From: a virus
DNA length: 29,889 nucleotides
Reading direction: 5' to 3' (one strand)
IMG/VR virus record: IMGVR_UViG_3300025674_000248
Coordinates: 1-29,889 of that record
Below are positions 447 through 25,745 of this stretch, one piece after another (within the stretch, counting starts at the first letter, position 1; every line of letters begins with the position of its first letter). The position numbers were made by a program, and so were the translations under genes. The notes beneath the pieces were generated by a model. It was not told the DNA's origin. It saw nothing but the letters and a program-made list of their open reading frames with translations, and made no database searches.

Positions 447-1024
447 ACGAAAATGTGAAAATAGTCGAGCTTGTTATTGACGAAGAGACAGGCGTGGATG
501 CGGTAGCCTTAGTAGATCGGCCTGCCATTGAAAGAGAATGGTTGGCATTTAACGAAGAGGGAACGTATAAGTTCAAAGTAGAGAACGAAGAAAGGAGAAT
601 CGTTAGCGGTCCGTTAATGGTTGCCGACCTTCCTATCTATAGGGTGGATCAATACGGTGGTGAGTATTACGCTATCTTCAGGAAGGACACTATCGAAAAG
701 ATAGTACACAAGTTTATGCAGGAGGGCAGGACAAACGCTGTAAACCTAATGCACGAATCCAGTATGATACCAGAGGGCGTGTATATGTTTGAATCGTTTA
801 TTATTGATTCGTCCAGAGGGATAAACACTCCGGACGGCTTTAAGGCTTTACCAGACGGTTCATGGTTCGGTAGTTACAAGGTAGAGAATGACGAGGTATG
901 GCAGCAAGTAAAGGAAGGAACATTCAAAGGGTTCAGCGTAGAGGGAATGTTCAAACCATTGGACAAAGGGGAGAAGCCCACAGATCTTGTGGATGCTATC
1001 ATTGAAATCATAAACGGAAAGTGA
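443..1024 (+). CDS. XkdF-type prohead serine protease
   Basis: This 193-residue protein resembles the XkdF/S78-like phage proteases that trim the scaffold and capsid proteins during head maturation. Visible signatures are the block around His104 (AVNLMHE), the strand ESFIIDSSRG at about 118-126, and the block around Ser165 (FKGFSVEG). His104 and Ser165 are the likely catalytic pair by family analogy. The ATG overlaps the tape-measure stop codon, implying translational coupling. The next plus-strand gene is the scaffold, the expected neighbour of a prohead protease, but an antisense homing endonuclease gene now separates them. The 3' end overlaps the end of that antisense gene by 17 bases. Confidence 0.8.
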   Translation: MNENVKIVELVIDEETGVDAVALVDRPAIEREWLAFNEEGTYKFKVENEERRIVSGPLMVADLPIYRVDQYGGEYYAIFRKDTIEKIVHKFMQEGRTNAVNLMHESSMIPEGVYMFESFIIDSSRGINTPDGFKALPDGSWFGSYKVENDEVWQQVKEGTFKGFSVEGMFKPLDKGEKPTDLVDAIIEIINGK

Positions 1025-1589
1025 GTTGACCTTGTGGGGGTTCTATTTCGTTAATTAGGGCGAACTCTCCGTAGTGTTTAAGGGCTGCTTCGTTGTAACA
1101 TTGGGCTGCTTCTTCTTCGAAGGTGAATATACCTAAGTATTTTTTTTTGCCGTTTATTTGTATTTGAGCCTTCCACTTTTTAGCTCCCTTACACCAATTA
1201 ACACCTTTGTATTTTGATGAACTTCCGTGATAAGACTTACAATTCATCATGTTTTGTTGGTTAGTAACTACCCTAAGATTTAACTTAATATTTAGAAGCC
1301 CTGACCACTTCAATTCAGGATATTGCTTGTCAAATTCGTCTCCGTTTAATATGTGGTCTGTTACCATTCCTTTTGGGGTTTGCATCAAATACCCATGCAT
1401 GCTAATATAACGAGTAGACCGCTTTCCGCAGGGCTTATAGTAGGTTTCAGCCCTTGCTGCATAAACATTTCCTATACTCTTGTCCTTTCGCTTTTTAACA
1501 TAAGCACACCACTTCCATTCCATAAGATGGTCGTAGTCCTCATCGTCTACATAAGTAAAGAATCCTTGTGTTAGTTCGATCTTTTTCAT
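1008..1589 (-). CDS. HNH homing endonuclease with AP2 DNA-binding domain
   Basis: This is a free-standing selfish endonuclease of 193 residues. The N-terminal part carries an HNH-like core: TDHILNGD with Asp78-His79, then NLRVVTNQQNMMN at about 104-116. About 20 residues separate the two halves, longer than the usual spacing. Residues about 125-180 form an AP2/ERF-like domain (YKGVNW, KKWKAQIQ, KKYLGIFTFEEEAAQCYNEA), which such enzymes use for target binding. It is the only minus-strand gene in the morphogenesis region, lies between protease and scaffold, and has its own host-type promoter at 1607-1637. This points to recent insertion. Its 3' end overlaps the protease gene by 17 bases, so the insertion may have replaced the original end of that gene. 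Confidence 0.88.
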   Translation of the reverse strand: MKKIELTQGFFTYVDDEDYDHLMEWKWCAYVKKRKDKSIGNVYAARAETYYKPCGKRSTRYISMHGYLMQTPKGMVTDHILNGDEFDKQYPELKWSGLLNIKLNLRVVTNQQNMMNCKSYHGSSSKYKGVNWCKGAKKWKAQIQINGKKKYLGIFTFEEEAAQCYNEAALKHYGEFALINEIEPPQGQLTFRL

Positions 1590-4058: not shown

Positions 4059-4086
4059 CAACAAATCGGTAAATCTTATACTTATA
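4059..4086 (+). promoter_or_regulatory. Putative phage late promoter, copy 2 (portal/neck/lysis cassette)
   Basis: CAAC (4059-4062), 16 bases, TACTTATA (4079-4086). The first eight bases, CAACAAAT, are identical to those of the copies at 22512 and 25133. The ATG follows after one base. It is placed directly after an intrinsic terminator, as expected for a fresh transcription start. Confidence 0.65.
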
Positions 4087-4087
4087 T

Positions 4088-4273
4088 ATGATGATACGAA
4101 AAGAACTAATAGGAACAAGTATCTACGTTAAGAAATTAGACCGTGAGGTTTTGATTTCGGAGGATAATGTAGAATTGTTAAAGGCATTAAAAATAGATTG
4201 CTTTGGTAAAGATAGCACAAGGACAAGCGAGTACGGTAGTCGTAACCGCAAGCGAAAGAAAAACGATCAGTAG
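4088..4273 (+). CDS. Small basic conserved phage protein
   Basis: A 61-residue protein with two tandem start codons (4088 and 4091). The N-terminal 40 residues look folded (RKELIGTSIYVKKLDREVL, then SEDNVELLKAL). The C-terminus is a highly basic Arg/Lys tail (SRNRKRKKND). The last 71 bases overlap the next gene in another frame, so the basic tail may partly be a by-product of that overlap. It is the first gene after the late element and probably a minor structural or assembly factor, but I do not recognise a function. Confidence 0.6.
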   Translation: MMIRKELIGTSIYVKKLDREVLISEDNVELLKALKIDCFGKDSTRTSEYGSRNRKRKKNDQ

Positions 4274-12842: not shown

Positions 12843-13133
12843 TTATAACCGTTCATCTTGTAATTGATAACCGTTAATGACATCGCGCAGTTTGCTGATC
12901 TCATCGCGCTGACGTTCATTCTCTATCCTTAGATTTACCTTTTCCTGTTCCAGTTCTTTCAGGTAGTCGAACAAAAGGTTGCTGTGTTCACGGTGTACTC
13001 TTTCCAGTTCAGCTTCTAAAGCAACTGCACGTTCCAAAGGCATATCTGCCTCCGCTACTCGGTAGGTCATTAGATTGCCGCGCCAACAAGCGTAATAATT
13101 AGATAGGCTGCTGATGATTTGATTGATGTTCAT
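12843..13133 (-). CDS. Small coiled-coil protein at the end of the early operon
   Basis: A 96-residue protein with a short N-terminal region containing YACWRGN. It then has one long charged coiled coil (about 32-88: LERAVALEAELERVHREH, LKELEQEKVNLRIENERQ, ISKLRDVING). I do not recognise the family. It is separated from the upstream gene by 31 bases and has its own possible -7 element at 13149-13156. Its start region (AAACTAAACACC just before ATG) belongs to a recurring initiation motif in this operon. Oligomerisation through the coiled coil is likely. Confidence 0.6.
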   Translation of the reverse strand: MNINQIISSLSNYYACWRGNLMTYRVAEADMPLERAVALEAELERVHREHSNLLFDYLKELEQEKVNLRIENERQRDEISKLRDVINGYQLQDERL

Positions 13134-13148
13134 GGTGTTTAGTTTTTA

Positions 13149-13830: not shown

Positions 13831-14228
13831 TAGTCTAATAATTCGTCAATGTTTGTCTTGCGTTTTACTGTGTTCCTTGCTTGGTTCACTACCGAGTTAA
13901 ACCGTGAGTTAACCATGCAGACCTCCCAATTCTCTTTTAGCCATTTGTCTTGATAGGCTATTTGAATAAATACTTTTGTAGCTTCGATAACATCTGATTG
14001 CTTGTTCGAGTTCTTTATCTCAAAATCCATCTTTTTAAGTAATTGCTTGGCGCATCCTGCGTCTTTGGCTGTCCAGTAATATGTCAGGTCATTTGACATG
14101 CAAAAGTCCTCCCAAGCCTTTCTAAAATCGTTTACCCTTGATTCTGATTTAGACCGCTTGCGAATCTCTTTGTCAATATCAGATCGCATTCGTTTCAGTT
14201 GTTCGATAGTAAGTTGGTGGTAGTCCAT
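13830..14228 (-). CDS. Early-operon protein, possible replication accessory factor
   Basis: A 132-residue helical protein. It starts MDYHQLTIEQLKRMRSDIDK, has a basic linker, then TYYWTAKDAGCAKQLLKKMDF and a C-terminal block DKWLKENWEVCMVNSRFNSV. The WTAKDAGxAKQLLKK pattern recurs in small Bacteroidetes phage proteins found near replication genes, though I cannot assign a biochemical role. It overlaps the DnaA-domain gene by 50 bases and is coupled to the next gene by a one-base overlap. Confidence 0.65.
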   Translation of the reverse strand: MDYHQLTIEQLKRMRSDIDKEIRKRSKSESRVNDFRKAWEDFCMSNDLTYYWTAKDAGCAKQLLKKMDFEIKNSNKQSDVIEATKVFIQIAYQDKWLKENWEVCMVNSRFNSVVNQARNTVKRKTNIDELLD

Positions 14229-14607
14229 TGCTCAATATGCTTTTGATTTGGTACACTTGCTTGCTTATTTTTTTATCGTTGGTGCATAGCATTTCGATTG
14301 TTCGTTTGCCATGCGTAACTGTTGAATGGTCTTTCTCAAAGAACTCCCCGATCTTTAATACTGTATGTCCGTATTGGTAAGCGAAATACATAACCATCTG
14401 ACGAGCTTCTACTATTTGCCTGAACCTGACATTCTTTTTCATATCCTTAATAGGTATTTGAGTAACCGATTCTACGACTTCAGCTATCTCATTGATCGGT
14501 ATTTTTCTGTACTTCTCTTTGATTGCGCTTTCTTTTATGTACGGCGACTTGTTGATCTTCGCATCTTGCACTCGTATTGGCAAGCCTAAAAATACTTCTG
14601 GTTTCAT
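14179..14607 (-). CDS. Stand-alone DnaA domain IV-like DNA-binding protein
   Basis: The 142-residue protein contains the C-terminal DNA-binding domain of DnaA, the bacterial replication initiator, without the AAA+ ATPase. Residues about 61-104 show it: RFRQIVEARQMVMYFAYQYG, then IGEFFEKDHSTVTHGKRTI. The DHSTVTHGKRTI block (93-104) matches the DnaA signature DHTTVxHAxxxI that contacts the DnaA box. The first 55 residues are basic and unassigned. It probably binds a phage origin or competes for host DnaA sites. Start and stop overlap its neighbours (ATGA upstream). Confidence 0.82.
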   Translation of the reverse strand: MKPEVFLGLPIRVQDAKINKSPYIKESAIKEKYRKIPINEIAEVVESVTQIPIKDMKKNVRFRQIVEARQMVMYFAYQYGHTVLKIGEFFEKDHSTVTHGKRTIEMLCTNDKKISKQVYQIKSILSNGLPPTYYRTTETNAI

Positions 14608-15696: not shown

Positions 15697-15944
15697 GATT
15701 GTAAGATTTTACCGTCAATCGAACATCGCAATTTAAGATAGGTATCACCGTTTTTCAGGAGTGCCTTTTGATCGTGGTAGGATATTACTTTCCACTTCAC
15801 TCCGTCTATTCTTATTTCACTACCGACTTCAATAGGTGGTATAATACCGTCTATTTTCATTGATAGGTTAGACCGTTCTCTTTTGATGTAGGTAAGCCAT
15901 TCCTTAAATGAATGTACTGGGTTAGTTGGGTAGGTTGTTTTCAT
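15690..15944 (-). CDS. Small early protein of unknown function
   Basis: An 84-residue protein with a helical N-terminus (VHSFKEWLTYIKRERSNLSM) and a compact beta-rich C-terminal half (IEVGSEIRIDGVKWKVISYH, then DTYLKLRCSIDGKIL). That half resembles a small SH3- or Tudor-like barrel by strand pattern only. The start region is one of the AAACACG-ATG sites of this operon. No catalytic residues are apparent. It could be a host-takeover protein, as is common for first genes of early operons. Confidence 0.55.
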   Translation of the reverse strand: MKTTYPTNPVHSFKEWLTYIKRERSNLSMKIDGIIPPIEVGSEIRIDGVKWKVISYHDQKALLKNGDTYLKLRCSIDGKILQSC

Positions 15945-15963
15945 CGTGTTTGGTTTTACTTAT

Positions 15964-16546: not shown

Positions 16547-16554
16547 TATGTTTG
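16547..16554 (+). promoter_or_regulatory. -7 element of the rightward HTH gene
   Basis: TATGTTTG matches TAnnTTTG exactly and ends 23 bases before the ATG at 16578. A good TTTG is missing at the usual distance; only an A/T tract is there. The promoter may be weak or activator-dependent. It overlaps the dyad at 16550-16569. Confidence 0.5.
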
Positions 16555-16577: not shown

Positions 16578-16775
16578 ATGAAAGAGTATTTCAAAGAGAA
16601 GAAAATACGCCAGACAAAGGTAGCGGAGGTGTTGGGCATTAGTAAGGTATCGGTATCAAGTAAGGTAAACGGTCAACAGCCCTGGAAGTTGGCAGAGTTA
16701 AAAAAGCTATCCGAGCATTTGAACGTACCTATCTGCGAAGTGGTAGAAGTGGCTATCGAACATGAAACAGCGTAA
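16578..16775 (+). CDS. Cro/C1-type small HTH regulator
   Basis: A 65-residue XRE-family protein that is essentially one helix-turn-helix domain. The core is RQTKVAEVLGISKVSVSSKVNGQ (about 11-33), followed by PWKLAELKKLSEHLNVPICE. There is no oligomerisation domain beyond the fold, as in Cro. It is divergent from the early minus-strand operon across a control region that contains both promoters and a dyad, so it probably sets the early transcriptional switch. No integrase is seen in this window, so a lysogenic role cannot be claimed. It overlaps the next gene by 14 bases. Confidence 0.8.
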   Translation: MKEYFKEKKIRQTKVAEVLGISKVSVSSKVNGQQPWKLAELKKLSEHLNVPICEVVEVAIEHETA

Positions 16776-17280: not shown

Positions 17281-17349
17281 TTACGAGCCTTCAGAATCTA
17301 TCTTCTGGAATGTCAAACATCTATACTAAAAACATTGTATATTCGTACT

Positions 17350-17961
17350 ATGGCACTAAAAAAACGAAAGTGTAAAGTATGTAAGACGGAGTTCAAACAA
17401 ACTCGACCATTGCAAACAGTATGCTCGTGGACTTGTGCTACCCAATTTGCTAAAAAGAAGGAACAGGAAAAACGCAAGGCGGAAACCCAAAGGATGAAGG
17501 AGGATCTGAAAACTTATGGCGATTGGTTAAGGAATTTGCAGGTTTTGGTTAACCGTATAGTTCGGGTAATAGACTATGGCAGTCCGTGTATGAGTTGCGG
17601 AAAGGTTGGTGGTAAAGCACAGGCAGGACACTATCATAGTGTAGGATCAAACCCACAACTAAGATTTCACTTTATGAATATATGGCTTCAGGACTACCGA
17701 TGTAATGTAGAATTGTCTGCCAACATTCCAGGATATAACAAAGGGCTGTTTGATTCCTTTGGAAAGGAAACAAAAGAGTTTATAGAATTCGGATTGACTG
17801 AAAGGTATCAGTCTAATAAATGGCAGCTTTACGAAATTAAGGACGCTATTAAGGAGTGCAAAAAGATTCTAAAGGAACTTTCCAAAGACAAAATCTACAC
17901 AATAGAGGAAAGGTACACTTTACGCAATGAGTTCAACAAAAGGCTTGGACTTTACAAATAA
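17350..17961 (+). CDS. ninG: NinG-type recombination protein
   Basis: With ATG 17350 the product has 203 residues. An in-frame TTG five codons upstream is less likely. The N-terminus is a zinc-binding four-Cys cluster (KCKVCKTEF: Cys8, Cys11; VCSWTCATQFA: Cys25, Cys29). A basic helix rich in Lys/Gln follows, and then the NinG core: VNRIVRVIDYGSPCMSCG, QAGHYHSVGSNPQLRFHFMN and YRCNVELSANIPGYNKGLFD. In lambda, NinG (Rap) helps resolve recombination intermediates. The TATATTCG element ending 4 bases before the ATG could make this message leaderless. Confidence 0.85.
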   Translation: MALKKRKCKVCKTEFKQTRPLQTVCSWTCATQFAKKKEQEKRKAETQRMKEDLKTYGDWLRNLQVLVNRIVRVIDYGSPCMSCGKVGGKAQAGHYHSVGSNPQLRFHFMNIWLQDYRCNVELSANIPGYNKGLFDSFGKETKEFIEFGLTERYQSNKWQLYEIKDAIKECKKILKELSKDKIYTIEERYTLRNEFNKRLGLYK

Positions 17962-18707: not shown

Positions 18708-18732
18708 CATCTGTTCATAGTGTTTAGTTTAC

Positions 18733-18772
18733 AAAGAGGGGGAGAAATAGACTGTGTTCTCCCTCTTTTTTT
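18733..18772 (+). terminator. Intrinsic terminator in the leader of the sigma operon (attenuator candidate)
   Basis: AAAGA and GGGAGAA (18733-18746, with a two-G bulge) pair with TTCTCCC and TCTTT (18757-18769). Seven Ts run to 18772. It lies between the promoter at 18677 and the GTG at 18786, with only 13 bases between its end and the coding start. Confidence 0.75.
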
Positions 18773-18785
18773 AACAAGCCTATAA

Positions 18786-19235
18786 GTGAATGACGAACTA
18801 CAAAATACAGATTTCTGGGTGAACATTTGCCTGACATTTACGAATGATCCGGTACTGGCAAGAGATTTGTGGCAGGAGGTTGTGTGTGATCTATGGAACA
18901 AAAAGCAGGACAACGCAAAGGGATATATCTACCGAACAATATATCTAAAGTGGAACGACAAGCATCAACGGTTCAAAAATAAGTTTCAGACCAGATATTC
19001 AATAGACGATTATATTATACCTGAAAAGGAAGATGTGATTGATTTAACCGACGAACACATGAAAAGGTTGGTATCTTCAGCATTGGACAATTACGACGAC
19101 TTAGACGCTGCATTACTGGAGTGCCATGCCAACGGAATGAGTTTGCGAGATATGGCAGAGAAGATAGGGTGCCATTATTCGACATTAAGTTACCGCATAA
19201 AAAAGACAAAAGATGACATCAAACGAAATCTTTAG
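18786..19235 (+). CDS. Phage-encoded ECF-like RNA polymerase sigma factor
   Basis: A 149-residue two-domain protein starting at GTG 18786 (the ATG four bases later is out of frame). The N-terminal half resembles sigma region 2: LARDLWQEVVCDLWNK at about 24-39 corresponds to the core-binding helix. AKGYIYRTIYLKWNDKHQR (about 44-62) corresponds to the -10 recognition helix. The C-terminal half resembles region 4 with a helix-turn-helix: LDAALLECHANGMSLRDMAE, then GCHYSTLSYRIKKTKDDI. Length and two-domain layout match ECF sigma factors. It should direct host RNA polymerase to phage promoters; the CAAC-N16-TACTTATA elements are the natural candidates. The end overlaps the next gene by 23 bases. 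Confidence 0.75.
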   Translation: MNDELQNTDFWVNICLTFTNDPVLARDLWQEVVCDLWNKKQDNAKGYIYRTIYLKWNDKHQRFKNKFQTRYSIDDYIIPEKEDVIDLTDEHMKRLVSSALDNYDDLDAALLECHANGMSLRDMAEKIGCHYSTLSYRIKKTKDDIKRNL

Positions 19236-19455
19236 GATTATTGCGGTAGGTTGTGGGGTGTATGTTTGGCTGCTGACACCGATAGCCTATAAGTTAAAAC
19301 GATGGCTAAAAGGCAAAAGGCTAAAGGCATGGCTGTATAATTTACCGTACTGTGAGAAGTGTTTGGCTTTCTGGTCAGGGTTGATAATCACAGGGCGGTT
19401 AGATATGGCTGTGGTTACGGTTGTGTTTACTAAATTGATATTGAGATATGTTTAG
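19213..19455 (+). CDS. Small membrane protein with a CxxC motif
   Basis: An 80-residue protein with hydrophobic segments at about 6-24 (FRIIAVGCGVYVWLLTPIA) and about 50-75. A basic loop (KLKRWLKGKRLKAWL) leads into the motif PYCEKCLAFWSGLII. CxxCLxFWxG in a small membrane protein is a pattern I know from small phage membrane proteins of unknown function (DUF1360-like). It is coupled to the sigma gene by a 23-base overlap. A membrane-anchored partner for the downstream glycosyltransferases is conceivable, but nothing in the sequence proves it. Confidence 0.6.
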   Translation: MTSNEIFRIIAVGCGVYVWLLTPIAYKLKRWLKGKRLKAWLYNLPYCEKCLAFWSGLIITGRLDMAVVTVVFTKLILRYV

Positions 19456-19732
19456 CGACAAAGAAAGGGAGATCATTGAAAGATGGTCCAGAACGAATGT
19501 ATTAGGGTTTACGGATATTGAACCCATGCAGCAATTAAGCGAGAGGTTGAACATCGGGGTTTTTAATGCAGGGTGCAACGCTTGTGTAAGGAAAAGAATG
19601 TCCACGTTAGTTGAAATTTTACAGAATGAGCCAGATACTAATAGTAGCGTCGGAGGACGGAGTAGCGTATCACAGGATATTAGCACCAATTCTGAACCTA
19701 AACGCAGACGTAAGCCACGTTCCAACGCTTGA
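19448..19732 (+). CDS. Small Cys-containing protein, unknown function
   Basis: A 94-residue protein. The N-terminal 60 residues look folded (SDKEREIIERWSRTNVLGFT, then GVFNAGCNACVRKRMSTLVE). The C-terminal 30 residues are Ser/Asn/Arg-rich and probably disordered. This disordered part overlaps the first 107 bases of the glycosyltransferase gene in another frame, so its sequence may be dictated by that overlap. The start overlaps the upstream gene by 8 bases. No function recognised. Confidence 0.55.
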   Translation: MFSDKEREIIERWSRTNVLGFTDIEPMQQLSERLNIGVFNAGCNACVRKRMSTLVEILQNEPDTNSSVGGRSSVSQDISTNSEPKRRRKPRSNA

Positions 19733-20633
19733 TATTAAGGACGACTTGGTAGAGTTATTTTCCAAGTTTGATACCTTATTTTTAAGCAGGATTCTTTCGG
19801 CTGACGAGAATCAGTTTGAAAAAATATACACTGCAATTCAGGAAACTGGCATCAAGTTAGTAGTGGACATTGATGACTATTGGTCATTACCACCGCAGCA
19901 CGGTCTTTACAAGTGGTACAAACAAAACAAAATCACATACAAGATTGCCCAGACGTTACGATTAGCCGATATGGTTATTACTACACACGGACGACTGGCC
20001 AACAAGGTTCGGGAATTAGGAGTTAAGGAAATAGTGATTTGCCCAAACGCTATTAACTTGGATCACGAACAATGGAAAGAGCCAGAATACGATCGTGCGC
20101 GGTTCACGGTAGGATGGGCAGGCAGTTCACATCATGTCATGGATCTGAACATGGTTAGGAGTTCGTTCATTCAGTTGGTAGATAAGGAGGTGGGTATTGT
20201 TTTCGGAGGGTACAAAGAGGGCTATCCGCAGAACTATTTTGAGTACATATTATCGGCCAACGGCAAGAACCCAAACTATAAAAGGATTCACGCTATGGAC
20301 GTATGGAACTACGGACGTATGTATGACTATATGGATGTATCTATTGCACCTTTGAAAAAAGACGATTTTAATATGATGAAGTCTGAACTGAAAGCTGTTG
20401 AAGCAGGGGTAAAGGGTTGTGGGTTCATAGCATCAAACATTCATCCATATACATTGATTTGTGATTCCACCAACTCAATACTGGTGGACAAGCCGAATGA
20501 CTTTTACAGGGCTATAATGAAGTACAAAAACGACCCTGAAATGTTGAAATCTCACCGTGAGAAATTAAAACAAGATATAAAGGAAAAGCGTAACTTAACA
20601 GAAATCAATAAGATAAGGGAGGAAATCTTATGA
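19626..20633 (+). CDS. GT-B fold glycosyltransferase (GT4-like)
   Basis: With ATG 19626 the product has 335 residues (a TTG five codons earlier is less likely). The N-terminal Rossmann half starts SQILIVASEDGVAYHRILAP and includes VVDIDDYWSLPP and LADMVITTHGRLANKVREL. The C-terminal half has FTVGWAGSSHHVMDLNMV, VWNYGRMYDYMDVSIAPL and KSELKAVEAGVKGCGFIAS. The ExxxxxxxE-type pair near 253-260 corresponds to the donor-binding motif of GT4 enzymes. It should transfer a sugar from a nucleotide donor, but the acceptor is unknown. It is the first of four adjacent genes typical of surface-polysaccharide loci rather than phages. Confidence 0.8.
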   Translation: MSQILIVASEDGVAYHRILAPILNLNADVSHVPTLDIKDDLVELFSKFDTLFLSRILSADENQFEKIYTAIQETGIKLVVDIDDYWSLPPQHGLYKWYKQNKITYKIAQTLRLADMVITTHGRLANKVRELGVKEIVICPNAINLDHEQWKEPEYDRARFTVGWAGSSHHVMDLNMVRSSFIQLVDKEVGIVFGGYKEGYPQNYFEYILSANGKNPNYKRIHAMDVWNYGRMYDYMDVSIAPLKKDDFNMMKSELKAVEAGVKGCGFIASNIHPYTLICDSTNSILVDKPNDFYRAIMKYKNDPEMLKSHREKLKQDIKEKRNLTEINKIREEIL

Positions 20634-21190
20634 TACACAAAACCTCTATAATATATCCGAATGTAACGATTGAGGACAATGTGTATATAGGACCTTATTG
20701 TATAATTGGTGCGCCTGCCGAGAGTAAAAGTTACACAGGCGAGGGCGAGGGGGTAGTTATCAAGTCAGGCACAAAGATACACGGCCACGTTACGATTGAT
20801 TCAGGAACGGAACGCCCCACAAAGATAGGCCACAATGCGTATATTATGAAAGGCGCACACATAGGCCACGATGTAGTGATTCACGACGATGTAACTATTG
20901 CTTGTCATTCGTTGGTAGGTGGACACGTTACTATTCAGGACGGTGCAAATTTGGGGTTAGGTTCTATCATTCATCAAAGACAGATAATAGGGGCTTATGC
21001 TTTTGTTGGGGCAGGGGCGGTTGTAACAAAGGGTGCGTATGTAAAGCCTGGAACTGTATTTGTGGGAAGTCCGGCACGGTACATCAAGTACAATTATTTC
21101 GGAATGGAAAGAGCAGGCATCACGGATAGTGTTCTTGAAAAGTACGAATCACTATACAACATGATGAGGTATGAAGGGCTGCGTGGTTAG
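20630..21190 (+). CDS. LpxA-like left-handed beta-helix acyltransferase
   Basis: A 186-residue hexapeptide-repeat protein that should form a trimeric left-handed beta-helix. The repeats run from IIYPNVTIEDNVYIGPYCII to about residue 150, and a short helical tail follows (DSVLEKYESLYNMM). The active-site region resembles LpxA: GAHIGHD (His77, His80), GGHVTIQD (His99) and IIHQ (His115). Their spacings (3, 19, 16) equal those of E. coli LpxA His122, His125, His144 and His160, where His125 is the catalytic base. LpxA is about 260 residues with a larger C-terminal domain, so this is a shortened relative. It could acylate or acetylate a nucleotide sugar or a glycan. ATGA overlap upstream. Confidence 0.82.
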   Translation: MIHKTSIIYPNVTIEDNVYIGPYCIIGAPAESKSYTGEGEGVVIKSGTKIHGHVTIDSGTERPTKIGHNAYIMKGAHIGHDVVIHDDVTIACHSLVGGHVTIQDGANLGLGSIIHQRQIIGAYAFVGAGAVVTKGAYVKPGTVFVGSPARYIKYNYFGMERAGITDSVLEKYESLYNMMRYEGLRG

Positions 21191-21779
21191 TGCGATGTAT
21201 GGCCGTCATGCTACGGTAAAGACGTTTTTTGAGCGTTTGAAACTTCCGGTAGTAATGTCGGTATCTACCTCTGAAGATAGTGTATTCGCAAGGGCATACA
21301 CCGACAAGGTTATTGAATTAGAAAATAACCCACTTGGAAGGAAATGGAATGACACGATTAAGTATGCTTATGATCTGGGCTTTGATTATTTTATCATGTT
21401 AGGCTCTGACGACTGGATGACATTACCGACCTACCTATTTATTAAAGACCAGATTAAGCACCACGACTTAATCGGATTTGAAGATATTTATTTTGAGCAG
21501 GAAGGTGATTGTTATTACTGGGGTGGCTATCAAGATCAGCGCAGGGGTGAACCTGGAGGCGCAGGCAGAACTATAACAAGAAAGGGAATAGAGAAATTAT
21601 ATTTTAACGTATGGGAGAACGCAGGCCAAAGGGGGCTTGATGGGTATTTTTGGGCAAGGTCTGGGCATCTAAACAGAAAGGTATTCAACCTGAAAAAAGA
21701 GGGTTTATACTTAGCAGACATCAAAGACGGCAAGGGGCTAACTCCATTGAAGTCTATACAGCATATACAGAAGTTATGA
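21171..21779 (+). CDS. GT-A-like glycosyltransferase, short
   Basis: A 202-residue protein with a GT-A-like core. The start reads MKGCVVSAMYGRHATVKTFF. FDYFIMLGSDDWMTLPTYLF (about 71-90) places Asp-Asp at the position of the metal-binding DxD motif. GGAGRTITRKGIEKLYFNVW and RGLDGYFWARSGHL follow, the latter a plausible acceptor-loop and catalytic-acid region. It is shorter than most GT2 enzymes. It overlaps the acyltransferase gene by 20 bases and the next glycosyltransferase by 4, so the cassette is translated as a block. Confidence 0.7.
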   Translation: MKGCVVSAMYGRHATVKTFFERLKLPVVMSVSTSEDSVFARAYTDKVIELENNPLGRKWNDTIKYAYDLGFDYFIMLGSDDWMTLPTYLFIKDQIKHHDLIGFEDIYFEQEGDCYYWGGYQDQRRGEPGGAGRTITRKGIEKLYFNVWENAGQRGLDGYFWARSGHLNRKVFNLKKEGLYLADIKDGKGLTPLKSIQHIQKL

Positions 21780-22510
21780 AAATAGCTTACATAATGAACA
21801 CCCTAAACAGGGGTATGATAACGCCAAACGTAACAGAGGCCAACGTAAAAAACGCAGGGTATGATATTGATTCGTTCTACATAACAGATCAAGGCTCAAC
21901 TGACATGGTGAAGGATTGGGTAGCTGAATACGCAACGATAGCGCATTTATACGATAGGAACATTGGCAACCCACAAGCCTTGAACCAGATGGCAGAACTG
22001 GCATCTAAACACAACAACGACATTATTCTGATAATGGGTAATGATATTGAGATGCCAAAGAATTGGTTAAAGCAAGCTGTAGAGGTTTTGAAGTATGCCG
22101 AAACCGGAATAGTAGGATGGTCATGGAGAGGATACCAAAACGAGCCAGTAGAATACTACGGTCATAAGGTAGTTAAAGATTCAAAGATTTTCGGCTGTTG
22201 GGCTATGCGAGCAGACACATGGCGGACGGTTGGGTACTTTTCAGAGTTCTCAAAATATGGGATATGGGATAGCGACTACAACACCCGAACACAATTTGCA
22301 GGGTATTCTAACTTTTATCTGTATGGATTGCACTCAAAACACTTGGTTAACGATGTAGAACACCAAACAGAATACCGTCTAATTAAGAACGAAGAAATGC
22401 GAAAGGCTGCTGCTAAATACCAAGCCATGCTACCACGATATTCAAAGGATTGTTTCTACGTTGACAAATGGCAGAACCTGAAATGCAAAACCGTCGTAAT
22501 GGAGGTCTAA
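21776..22510 (+). CDS. GT2-family glycosyltransferase (GT-A fold)
   Basis: I choose ATG 21776, which overlaps the upstream stop (ATGA), rather than an upstream in-frame ATG inside the preceding gene. The 244-residue product shows GT2 signatures: MKIAYIMNTLNRG, then FYITDQGSTDMVKDWVAEYA, then YDRNIGNPQALNQMAELASK and IILIMGNDIEMPKNWLKQAV, with Asn-Asp-Ile-Glu as the DxD-like metal site. IFGCWAMRADTWRTVGYFSE and YGIWDSDYN form the acceptor side. It is the last gene of the sigma/glycan operon; the late element at 22512 begins right after its stop codon. Confidence 0.8.
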   Translation: MKIAYIMNTLNRGMITPNVTEANVKNAGYDIDSFYITDQGSTDMVKDWVAEYATIAHLYDRNIGNPQALNQMAELASKHNNDIILIMGNDIEMPKNWLKQAVEVLKYAETGIVGWSWRGYQNEPVEYYGHKVVKDSKIFGCWAMRADTWRTVGYFSEFSKYGIWDSDYNTRTQFAGYSNFYLYGLHSKHLVNDVEHQTEYRLIKNEEMRKAAAKYQAMLPRYSKDCFYVDKWQNLKCKTVVMEV

Positions 22511-22511
22511 T

Positions 22512-22539
22512 CAACAAATGAAGATTTTTTATACTTATA
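22512..22539 (+). promoter_or_regulatory. Putative phage late promoter, copy 3 (terminase cassette)
   Basis: CAAC (22512-22515), 16 bases, TACTTATA (22532-22539), with ATG one base later at 22541. It starts two bases after the last glycosyltransferase stop codon, so it marks an operon boundary. Confidence 0.65.
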
Positions 22540-22540
22540 C

Positions 22541-22789
22541 ATGGATGGCAACGAACTCGAAGATCAAACGGACATATCCTTCCTCCAAGTCATGGGAGAG
22601 GACCAATCTATCTTCCCTGCCGGAACATTGGTGCAAAACATCATCACACCAATATCACTACAGATCGAAATCGTCAATGGGTGTTATGAGGAGATGGACG
22701 GAGATGGTGATATGGAAGTGCTATTGGGTTACATCTTTGATGAGATAGACGACGATGACGGATTTGAAGTAGTGTTCTCACTAAACTAA
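22541..22789 (+). CDS. Small acidic protein upstream of terminase
   Basis: An 82-residue, strongly acidic protein (MDGNELEDQTDISFLQVMGE; CYEEMDGDGDMEVLLGYIFD; EIDDDDGFEVVFSLN). The start at 22541 is supported by its placement one base after the conserved late element, as for the gene at 4088. No known domain is recognised. Position directly before the terminase genes suggests a packaging or head role, but a regulatory function is equally possible. Six bases separate it from the next gene. Confidence 0.55.
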   Translation: MDGNELEDQTDISFLQVMGEDQSIFPAGTLVQNIITPISLQIEIVNGCYEEMDGDGDMEVLLGYIFDEIDDDDGFEVVFSLN

Positions 22790-22795
22790 AGGACT

Positions 22796-23260
22796 ATGGC
22801 AAAAGGGAAAGACGAAAAAGGAAGGTTCACCATCGGACATCTATGGTCTATTGGTAACAACGGAGGACGGCCAGCCAAGTACGAAACACCGGAAGCCCTG
22901 CACCAAGCAATAGGACAGTACCTTGAATGGGAAGAAAAAACATCAAAGGGAAAGTACACCCTTGAAGGGGCTGCACTATTTTTGGGGTTTGCAAGCATCC
23001 AGTCTATGTATGACTACGAAAAAAGAGATGCCAAGTTTTCTTATATAATCAACAGATACCGACTATTCCTAACGCATTACCACGCTCAAAGGCTAACATG
23101 GGCAGGCAGTTATCAGGGTTCGGCTTTCTGGTTAAAGAACTTCGGAGGGTACAAAGAGGAACAGACGGTGAACCAAAATCAAAAGATAGTAGCAAAGTAT
23201 GGAGATAACGATGTACCAACCTCACGCGAAACAGGCGGAGATACACCGAGCGATCAATAA
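22796..23260 (+). CDS. terS: Terminase small subunit
   Basis: A 154-residue protein that should recognise phage DNA for packaging. It has a basic, Gly-rich start (DEKGRFTIGHLWSIGNNGGR) and then PAKYETPEALHQAIGQYLEW. The DNA-binding core reads YTLEGAALFLGFASIQSMYD, followed by KFSYIINRYRLFLTHYHAQR and SAFWLKNFGGYKEEQTV. The arrangement of a GFxSxQSxYDYE helix-turn-helix and a C-terminal FWLKNFG is the pattern of P22 gp3-like terminase small subunits. The last 62 bases overlap the large-subunit gene. Confidence 0.82.
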   Translation: MAKGKDEKGRFTIGHLWSIGNNGGRPAKYETPEALHQAIGQYLEWEEKTSKGKYTLEGAALFLGFASIQSMYDYEKRDAKFSYIINRYRLFLTHYHAQRLTWAGSYQGSAFWLKNFGGYKEEQTVNQNQKIVAKYGDNDVPTSRETGGDTPSDQ

Positions 23261-24377
23261 GGGAAGGGAGAAGTATTACACATTATGTATAGGCAGGCAG
23301 TTTGGCAAGTCCGTATTGGCCGAGAATCAAGCTGTAGATTGGATGGTCAACAAAGGATGGCATGGTGCATGGGTATCACCAACGTACAGACAAGCCAAGA
23401 AGGTAGCCGATGAGATGGATAGTATGTTTGAAGGACTATTTAATTACAACCGTACTGAAATGGTTATGCGCGTTCCTTCAGGTGGTTCAATTCAATTCTT
23501 TTCCTCCGAGCGTTACGACAACATAAGGGGGTTCACCTTTGATTTTCTGATAGTAGATGAGGCAGCGTTTCAAGCTGAAGAAGCATGGACTGAAGTGCTA
23601 AGGGCAACTGTATTGGTACACGGCAAAAAGGTGCTATTCGTATCTACACCCAAAGGAAAAAACTGGTTTCACAATATGTTCCAACTTGACGGCGTAAACC
23701 CTGCTTACAGATCGTTTAAGTTCACTTCGTATGACAATCCAATGATTGATCCCAAAGAGATCGATGGAGCAAAAGAAACGCTACCGGATCATGTTTTCAG
23801 GCAGGAGTATTTAGCGGAGTTTTTAGACGGCAATGGAAGCCTATTTGGCAGAATGAAATTCTACACACCCACCGAGAAAACAAAAACATTTTTCGGCGTT
23901 GACGTTGGAAGGGCGAATGATTATACTGTTTTGACTATATTAAACGAGAATGGCGAGATGGTTTTCTGCGATAGGTGGAGGCATGACAGTTGGGAGTTGA
24001 TTAAGAAAAGGGTGGCCGATAAGATAAACGAGTACGGTGCTATCGGACTGGTGGAGGTAAACAGTATTGGTGATCCATTTCTGGAGGACTTGCGGAAGTT
24101 GGTCAAGCAGGCCGAACCATTTCAGACCACGAACAAAACCAAGCAGGATATAATAGAGGGGTTGATAGTGGCGTGTGAGAATGGGGAAACGTCATGCTTG
24201 GATATTGACTGGCTAAGAAAAGAATTAGAGGTATTTGAATGGGAATACCTGCCAAAGACAAGAAGTGTGCGCTATTCTGCTCCGTCAGGCTTCCACGACG
24301 ACGGTGTAATGAGTTACGCTATTGCTTACCATGCTATGAAAAATCTAAAAATGAAAGGAGTTTATTATGTCCGTTAA
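23199..24377 (+). CDS. terL: Terminase large subunit
   Basis: A 392-residue packaging motor with both ATPase and nuclease. ATPase: Walker A GRQFGKS at 32-38, Walker B IVDE with Asp120-Glu121, and coupling motif FVSTPKG with Ser149-Thr150. Nuclease of the RNase H fold: Asp235 (FFGVDVGRAN), Glu286 or Asp292 (LVEVNSIGDP) and Asp367-Asp368 (FHDDGVMSYAIA). The ATG at 23199 is used; a second in-frame ATG lies four codons later. It is a short terminase but appears complete. The end overlaps the tail chaperone start by 11 bases. The portal gene lies far away at 4616, so the packaging genes are split. Confidence 0.93.
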   Translation: MEITMYQPHAKQAEIHRAINKGREKYYTLCIGRQFGKSVLAENQAVDWMVNKGWHGAWVSPTYRQAKKVADEMDSMFEGLFNYNRTEMVMRVPSGGSIQFFSSERYDNIRGFTFDFLIVDEAAFQAEEAWTEVLRATVLVHGKKVLFVSTPKGKNWFHNMFQLDGVNPAYRSFKFTSYDNPMIDPKEIDGAKETLPDHVFRQEYLAEFLDGNGSLFGRMKFYTPTEKTKTFFGVDVGRANDYTVLTILNENGEMVFCDRWRHDSWELIKKRVADKINEYGAIGLVEVNSIGDPFLEDLRKLVKQAEPFQTTNKTKQDIIEGLIVACENGETSCLDIDWLRKELEVFEWEYLPKTRSVRYSAPSGFHDDGVMSYAIAYHAMKNLKMKGVYYVR

Positions 24378-25132: not shown

Positions 25133-25160
25133 CAACAAATCACGTTTTTGTGTACTTATA
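25133..25160 (+). promoter_or_regulatory. Putative phage late promoter, copy 4 (tail cassette)
   Basis: CAAC (25133-25136), 16 bases, TACTTATA (25153-25160), ATG three bases later at 25164. The first eight bases (CAACAAAT) are identical to copies 2 and 3, while the spacer differs almost completely, so it is the two boxes that are conserved. Confidence 0.65.
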
Positions 25161-25163
25161 TGT

Positions 25164-25745
25164 ATGGGAGTGGTTCAAGACTTTGACAACAAGTTTAACT
25201 TACCGTTGCAAAAAACGGTGGAGTACACTACGGACACTTCGGATGCACACCCTATTACTGCCTTGCTTCAGGAGTATGGGGATATGTGGGTTAAGTGCTT
25301 ACAATCCAACATCGACAAAAAGCAACTGATGTCCTCTGGTCAGTTAAGACAATCCATTAAATACGATCCACGCATAGCAAGGGGGAAGGTATTTGTTTTG
25401 AAGCTATTGATAGCGGACTACTATAAGTATGTAGATCAAGGCGTCAAGGGGGCTGTATCTTCTGCCAAAGCCCCTAACTCACCTTTTAAGTACGGAAGTG
25501 GCAAGGGCAAGAAAGGAGGCCTAAGAGAAGGGATGATAAAGTGGGTAAGGGAGAAAGGGTTGGGTGGATTAAGAGGGGATGCAAATTTAGAATCGTTAGC
25601 AGGATATTTAGCCTACAAGATTTACATGGAAGGTAAAGAGCCAACTTACTTCTATTCCGATTGCATTACAGAGGAAAGCGTGAACGAACTAAGGCAGAAG
25701 TTGGCGCAGCAAGTGAAACAAGATATGATTAACCTATGGCGATAA
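25164..25745 (+). CDS. Tail-associated protein, possibly HK97 gp10-like
   Basis: A 193-residue protein at the head of the tail cassette. Recognisable pieces are LMSSGQLRQSIKYDP, LIADYYKYVDQGVKG, SPFKYGSG, REGMIKWVREKGLGG and LAYKIYMEGKEPTYFYSD. The order (SGxLRxSI, YxxYVDxG, a basic Gly/Lys loop, a late aromatic segment) resembles HK97 gp10-like neck proteins, but position after the tail chaperone suits a tail component. The start is supported by its closeness to the conserved late element. The last 10 bases overlap the next gene. Confidence 0.55.
   Translation: MGVVQDFDNKFNLPLQKTVEYTTDTSDAHPITALLQEYGDMWVKCLQSNIDKKQLMSSGQLRQSIKYDPRIARGKVFVLKLLIADYYKYVDQGVKGAVSSAKAPNSPFKYGSGKGKKGGLREGMIKWVREKGLGGLRGDANLESLAGYLAYKIYMEGKEPTYFYSDCITEESVNELRQKLAQQVKQDMINLWR

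Follow-up and report, generated by a model that had tools for sequence, protein, structure and literature searches.

What is the function of the 149-residue protein encoded at positions 18786–19235 of this virus record, and is it the reader of an element repeated in front of the late genes? The window, meaning the whole stretch of DNA analysed here, is a 29.9 kb (29,889 nt) virus record, circularly permuted relative to a related contig (L004). Its ends (positions 1 and 29889) lie inside the tail/tape-measure region and are both bridged by a 91%-identical contig (IMGVR 3300025057_000063), which indicates a permuted record with ~2 kb missing. Our analysis suggests, with a probability of roughly 0.8, that the protein is an ECF-like sigma factor that directs the host core polymerase to four late promoters, three of them predicted to give leaderless or nearly leaderless mRNAs.

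Domain structure and placement of the 149-residue protein

The open reading frame lies on the plus strand, starts with GTG immediately behind an in-frame TAA, encodes 149 residues and ends, with its stop codon counted in, at 19235. Its matches consist of a region-2-like segment (residues 12–56) and a region-4-like segment (residues 109–142), with no other domain. The NCBIfam sigma70-ECF model matches residues 9–149 with E=2.9e-10; its score of 40.0 bits lies slightly below the curated cut-off (42.9). The PHROG sigma factor family matches with E=7e-7. A profile built from ten viral-contig homologues and compared with the PDB places ECF sigma factors first, with both domains covered: RpoE of 9n9q (1.3e-6), a SigH/SigE chimera (3.9e-5) and SigW (3.6e-4). 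An AlphaFold model (pLDDT 72, pTM 0.47) shows two domains and a floppy linker, with eight helices arranged as two four-helix domains, sigma2 at residues ~8–67 and sigma4 at ~89–148, flanking a low-confidence linker (71–86). The leading PDB matches of this model in Foldseek are ECF sigma factors, its C-terminal domain superposes at 1.8 Å on region 4 of E. coli sigmaE bound to −35 DNA, and among its best viral matches in BFVD are named phage ECF sigma factors, including that of the phiEco32-like phage GAP52.

The protein could instead be a sigma-derived regulator, for example a DNA-binding repressor that has retained the sigma4 helix-turn-helix. Such a reading draws on the low pTM of the model and on the weak Pfam scores, in which the region 2 and r4_2 matches are sub-threshold and generic helix-turn-helix families outscore the sigma families; the full two-domain match, the PDB matches spanning both domains and a D-L-x-x-E motif that is invariant in an alignment of ten diverse homologues speak against it, and we regard it as highly improbable.

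The sigma gene is placed after the early/recombination block, in which NinG lies at 17335–17961, and before the terminase genes (22796–24377). The original prediction had described a protein with region-2-like and region-4-like domains and nothing else, located between the early/recombination region and the late cassettes; both descriptions hold, and the structure comparison proposed there as a check against ECF families returned a sigma fold, the absence of which would have spoken against the assignment.

Directly upstream, a hairpin with a T run resembling an intrinsic terminator (AAAGAGGGGGAGAA...UUCUCCCUCUUUUUUU, 18732–18773, plus strand) ends ~12 nt 5' of the sigma start codon. Although the hairpin is strong, its z-score of −1.43 is modest. 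It is also poorly conserved, the one relative with a structure at the equivalent place (G012) carrying a different long hairpin that lacks the T run; for these reasons we claim no attenuation mechanism. A 19-nt repeat (TGTTCATGGTGTTTAGTTT, 84–95% identity) occurs at 13127–13145, 15938–15956 and 18712–18730. On the minus strand it covers the start codons of the early genes at 13133 and 15944, and its third copy precedes the sigma gene. Another early gene (14179–14607, minus strand) codes for a protein with the C-terminal domain of DnaA, which binds DNA (Pfam E=7e-17).

Late elements of the window and their predicted start-site register

The repeated late element with ECF-like spacing noted in the original prediction was recovered here in two forms. 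CAACAAAT-N12-TACTTATA occurs in three exact copies, at 4059, 22512 and 25133, and the window contains exactly four copies of AAC-N17-AYTTATA (1646, 4060, 22513 and 25134), all of them on the plus strand and 5' of late or structural genes, against a chance expectation of 0.23 and with 0/100 shuffles reaching four copies. A general sigma-70 (−35/−10) promoter scan of the window gave no excess over shuffles. Matches to CAACAAAT-N12-TACTTATA elsewhere in viral contigs (72 stretches) mostly do not precede an ATG and, near-identical relatives excepted, look like chance, which restricts the exact promoter to the lineage of the window.

We refer to the four predicted promoters, all on the plus strand, as E1 to E4. 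E1 (4059–4086) is preceded by a terminator-like hairpin and lies 1 nt before the ATG at 4088, 5' of a pre-portal gene and the portal gene. E2 (22512–22539), 1 nt before the ATG at 22541, heads the terminase cassette, the small and large subunit genes being the first functionally identified late genes after it, and E3 (25133–25160), 3 nt before the ATG at 25164, heads the tail genes. The weaker E4 (AAC-N17-ATTTATA, 1646–1672) lies 14 nt before the ATG at 1687. Just ahead of E4, an AP2-domain endonuclease-like gene (1008–1589, minus strand) forms an opposite-strand insert within the late operon, a place at which the operon would require a fresh promoter.

In three of the four copies the −10 box thus ends 1–3 nt before the start codon, a point absent from the original prediction. 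In the 91%-identical relative, E3 is identical over its full length despite changes on either side, and synonymous changes set in at the codons immediately behind the ATG at 25164, which supports this start codon, 3 nt behind the element. E2 of the same relative has a one-base shift within the −10 box, with its distance to the ATG kept.

The early genes of the window, by contrast with the late elements, carry a host-type TAnnTTTG box, as in the −7 box (TATGTTTG, 16547–16554, plus strand) of the early gene at 16578. The distance from this box to the ATG is mostly 15–25 nt, and only 4 nt in two of seven matched cases. These boxes, and the relation to Nonlabens phage P12024S described below, point to a member of the Bacteroidota as the probable host. 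The −7 box of Flavobacterium johnsoniae spans −12 to −5 (PMC6847099), and placing TATACTTA and TGTACTTA in this register predicts start sites at 4089 for E1, 22542 for E2 and 25163 for E3, none more than 1 nt away from the first base of the respective ATG. With start sites at these positions, late mRNAs from E1–E3 should be leaderless or nearly so.

The published hallmarks of ECF sigma factors are a protein made of sigma2 and sigma4 only, a linker under 50 residues, AAC in the −35 box and CGT in the −10 box, together with a co-transcribed cognate anti-sigma factor and positive autoregulation (PMC8103513). The 149-residue protein has the two domains and the short linker, and AAC is present in the −35 box of all four candidate promoters, where its link to the protein is one of association. 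The −10 box of the window has ACT or ATT in place of CGT, and none of the four elements lies 5' of the sigma gene. On account of these two departures, we describe the protein as a two-domain sigma-70-family factor that is ECF-like and assign it to no ECF group.

Sigma genes and late elements in related phages

Contigs near-identical to the window phage add little to the comparison. A portal-alignment scan returned 469 related stretches. We took 20 large, distantly related contigs from it in full, and 19 of them carry one sigma-like ORF each (~158–167 residues, E of 1.2e-26 or lower), in a first-round search built from five seeds, three of which came from those same contigs; the twentieth begins downstream of the sigma locus. 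In IMG/VR, a further scan with a query of one group gave at least 310 sigma homologues. Two matches were set aside: the first viral-contig match (L001, 33% over residues 86–148), which is spurious and lies within a 284-residue protein, and the result of a genome-contig scan with a two-sequence sigma alignment, which gave only alphaproteobacterial matches (Microvirga, Roseivivax) and is uninformative on hosts.

The isolate P12024S (NC_018271) is related to the window phage through its portal (26% identity) and major capsid (21%) proteins. Just upstream of its terminase lies gp33, a sigma-like gene annotated simply as 'containing Sigma-70 region 2', whose product matches the 149-residue protein with 24% identity (pairwise E=5e-8). 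Seven copies of AAC-N16/17-CGTTA directly precede the ATGs of late genes in this phage; the N17 form alone occurs nine times genome-wide against 1.4 expected, and six of the nine are copies before late genes. By its sequence, this element reads as a textbook ECF promoter. Its CGT −10 box is also found in two of the three G003 copies.

In an unbiased, ungapped pairwise comparison of 45-nt upstream windows against 20 shuffles, late-gene pairs rank first and above the shuffles in the window phage, P12024S, G012 (32/34 positions) and G003 (26/34). Within single AT-rich genomes (G008, G010, G017, G019), the same comparison gave no repeated element above shuffles, and hence the case in these lineages is built on orthologous positions. 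Across eight genomes, the AAC trinucleotide peaks at −32 and −30 from the start codon, with counts of 12 and 10 where ~4 is usual. At the orthologous site before the portal region (18 start-codon-aligned, partly redundant sequences), a terminator-like T run is followed by a −35 area rich in A and then by a −10 box of the TTTATA type, which in most of the 18 lies 2–4 nt before ATG or GTG. Sigma-bearing relatives have a common architecture of AAC, a 16–17-nt spacer and a −10 box, most plainly in P12024S, in sequences that are specific to each lineage and with spacers that also vary.

Elements so close to start codons might be translation-initiation or RNA-processing signals, or operators for another phage regulator, and the AT-rich relatives are AT-rich just 5' of the ATG in any case. 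Yet the −35 block lies ~28–32 nt upstream, the spacer is fixed in length while variable in sequence, the leader of E4 is longer, and the orthologous site directly follows a T-rich tail resembling a terminator, a position from which transcription has to begin anew. We therefore consider a non-promoter role very unlikely and continue with the reading as promoters.

Four Bacteroidota phages without the sigma gene (lotta8-1, P12002S, P2559S and part of phi14:2) have no late-strand repeat above shuffles. Of these, the Winoviridae phage lotta8-1, found through its small terminase, lacks the sigma gene and served as a negative control. On the minus, early strand of the Polaribacter phage P12002S (L298), an upstream element is repeated above shuffles (26–27 of 34 positions); these repeats are perhaps host-type promoters.

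The late elements might also be read by a host primary or ECF sigma factor, the phage protein serving other promoters or shutting off the host. The TATACTTA and TATATTTA boxes are only 1–2 bases off TAnnTTTG, so that this part of the −10 box resembles a degenerate host box and counts against our main reading, and flavobacteria own several ECF sigma factors, the host motif assigned to these having the same CGT −10 box as P12024S (PMC9723704). On the other side, good TAnnTTTG early promoters with longer leaders are kept in the same genomes, the late elements share AAC at N16–17 and differ by phage lineage, with CGTTA and not TTTG in P12024S, and the four same-phylum phages without the sigma gene have no such late-strand elements. 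Recognition by a host sigma factor is thus unlikely. The sigma gene and late elements of this architecture co-occur across lineages, and the originally predicted reading of the late element by the phage sigma factor gains support from this comparison of carriers and non-carriers.

The genes behind the sigma gene recur as well. Overlapping its 3' end, a gene at 19213–19455 (plus strand) encodes a hydrophobic, two-TM-like protein with a PYCEKCLAFW motif, for which we found no Pfam, PHROG or anti-sigma family match, followed by a gene for a small CxxC protein (GCNACVRKRM, 19448–19732, plus strand), with WCxxC counterparts following in other lineages. Genes for two-TM-like proteins with PxCxxC(L/M)xxW and for CxxC proteins also lie behind the sigma gene in G003, G008, G010, G012, G017 and G019, and neither counterpart is present behind the sigma gene of P12024S. 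These products, which gave no Pfam and no useful PHROG match, are candidates for a membrane anti-sigma factor, or they may be unrelated proteins. Between sigma and terminase, at 19611–22510, the window also has glycosyltransferase-like and LpxA-like acyltransferase genes, possibly for modification of surface sugars by the phage; an LpxA-like gene likewise follows sigma in G003, G017 and G019.

A proposed late switch and its relation to known systems

In the mechanism that we propose, host polymerase would first produce the early mRNAs, with the sigma message among them in the early or middle phase, an order suggested by the position of the sigma gene, which comes first among the genes separating the early region from the first late promoter. 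The phage sigma factor would then bind and take over host core RNA polymerase, with sigma4 reading the AAC −35 box and sigma2 the A(C/T)TTATA −10 box across a 17-nt spacer, and the new holoenzyme would start late transcription at E2 (terminase), E3 (tail), and E4 and E1 (head).

In phiEco32 (gp36) and phage 7-11, phage-encoded sigma factors of this kind are already known to serve late promoters of their own (PMC4331800, PMC4281155). These systems and the window have in common an ECF-like phage sigma factor, few conserved phage-specific middle or late promoters and host-type early promoters, a likeness that we do not take as orthology. The phiEco32 promoter is a single extended −10 element (tAATGTATAtA) located 6–8 nt before the start site (PMC4281155), whereas the element of the window has two boxes, AAC-N17-AYTTATA, and abuts the start codon; the partner protein in phiEco32 is an RNA-polymerase inhibitor. 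P12024S gp33 is closer, being homologous, in the same place before the terminase and accompanied by late elements of the same architecture, and differs in the CGTTA −10 box and the missing two-TM partner gene. Among solved structures, the best match by sequence is RpoE from the RNA-guided transcription complex 9n9q, a longer protein (261 residues) that belongs to another system of control.

The mechanism type is therefore already known from phiEco32 gp36, and its two-box, start-codon-abutting version in another phage group is new and widespread. In the literature searched, with subscription journals mostly outside it, we found no late-promoter system for Bacteroidota phages and no account of the present one, nor, with the P12024S genome announcement outside it, a promoter analysis of that phage. 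Leaderless mRNAs are rare in this phylum. Leaderless genes make up 2.4% in the sole signal-bearing genome of 37 Bacteroidetes/Chlorobi (PMC3160421) and 5.5% in F. psychrophilum (PMC9723704), and leaders under 10 nt make up 3.7% in B. thetaiotaomicron (PMC7366714).

We tentatively extend the proposal to a wide family of Bacteroidota phages, represented by the sigma homologues above, in which an ECF-like switch might lead from leadered early to leaderless late mRNAs, possibly with a membrane CxxC partner. For phages of the Bacteroidota, the analysis offers a candidate late-expression system whose promoter can be tested, together with its sigma factor and with P12024S as an isolate suited to such tests. 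As sigma and promoter sequences vary by lineage while the architecture stays constant, these phages form a natural set for studying sequence choice by small sigma factors. If the late mRNAs are leaderless, the phage relies on a translation route that few host mRNAs use, and the system could supply orthogonal expression parts for Bacteroidota.
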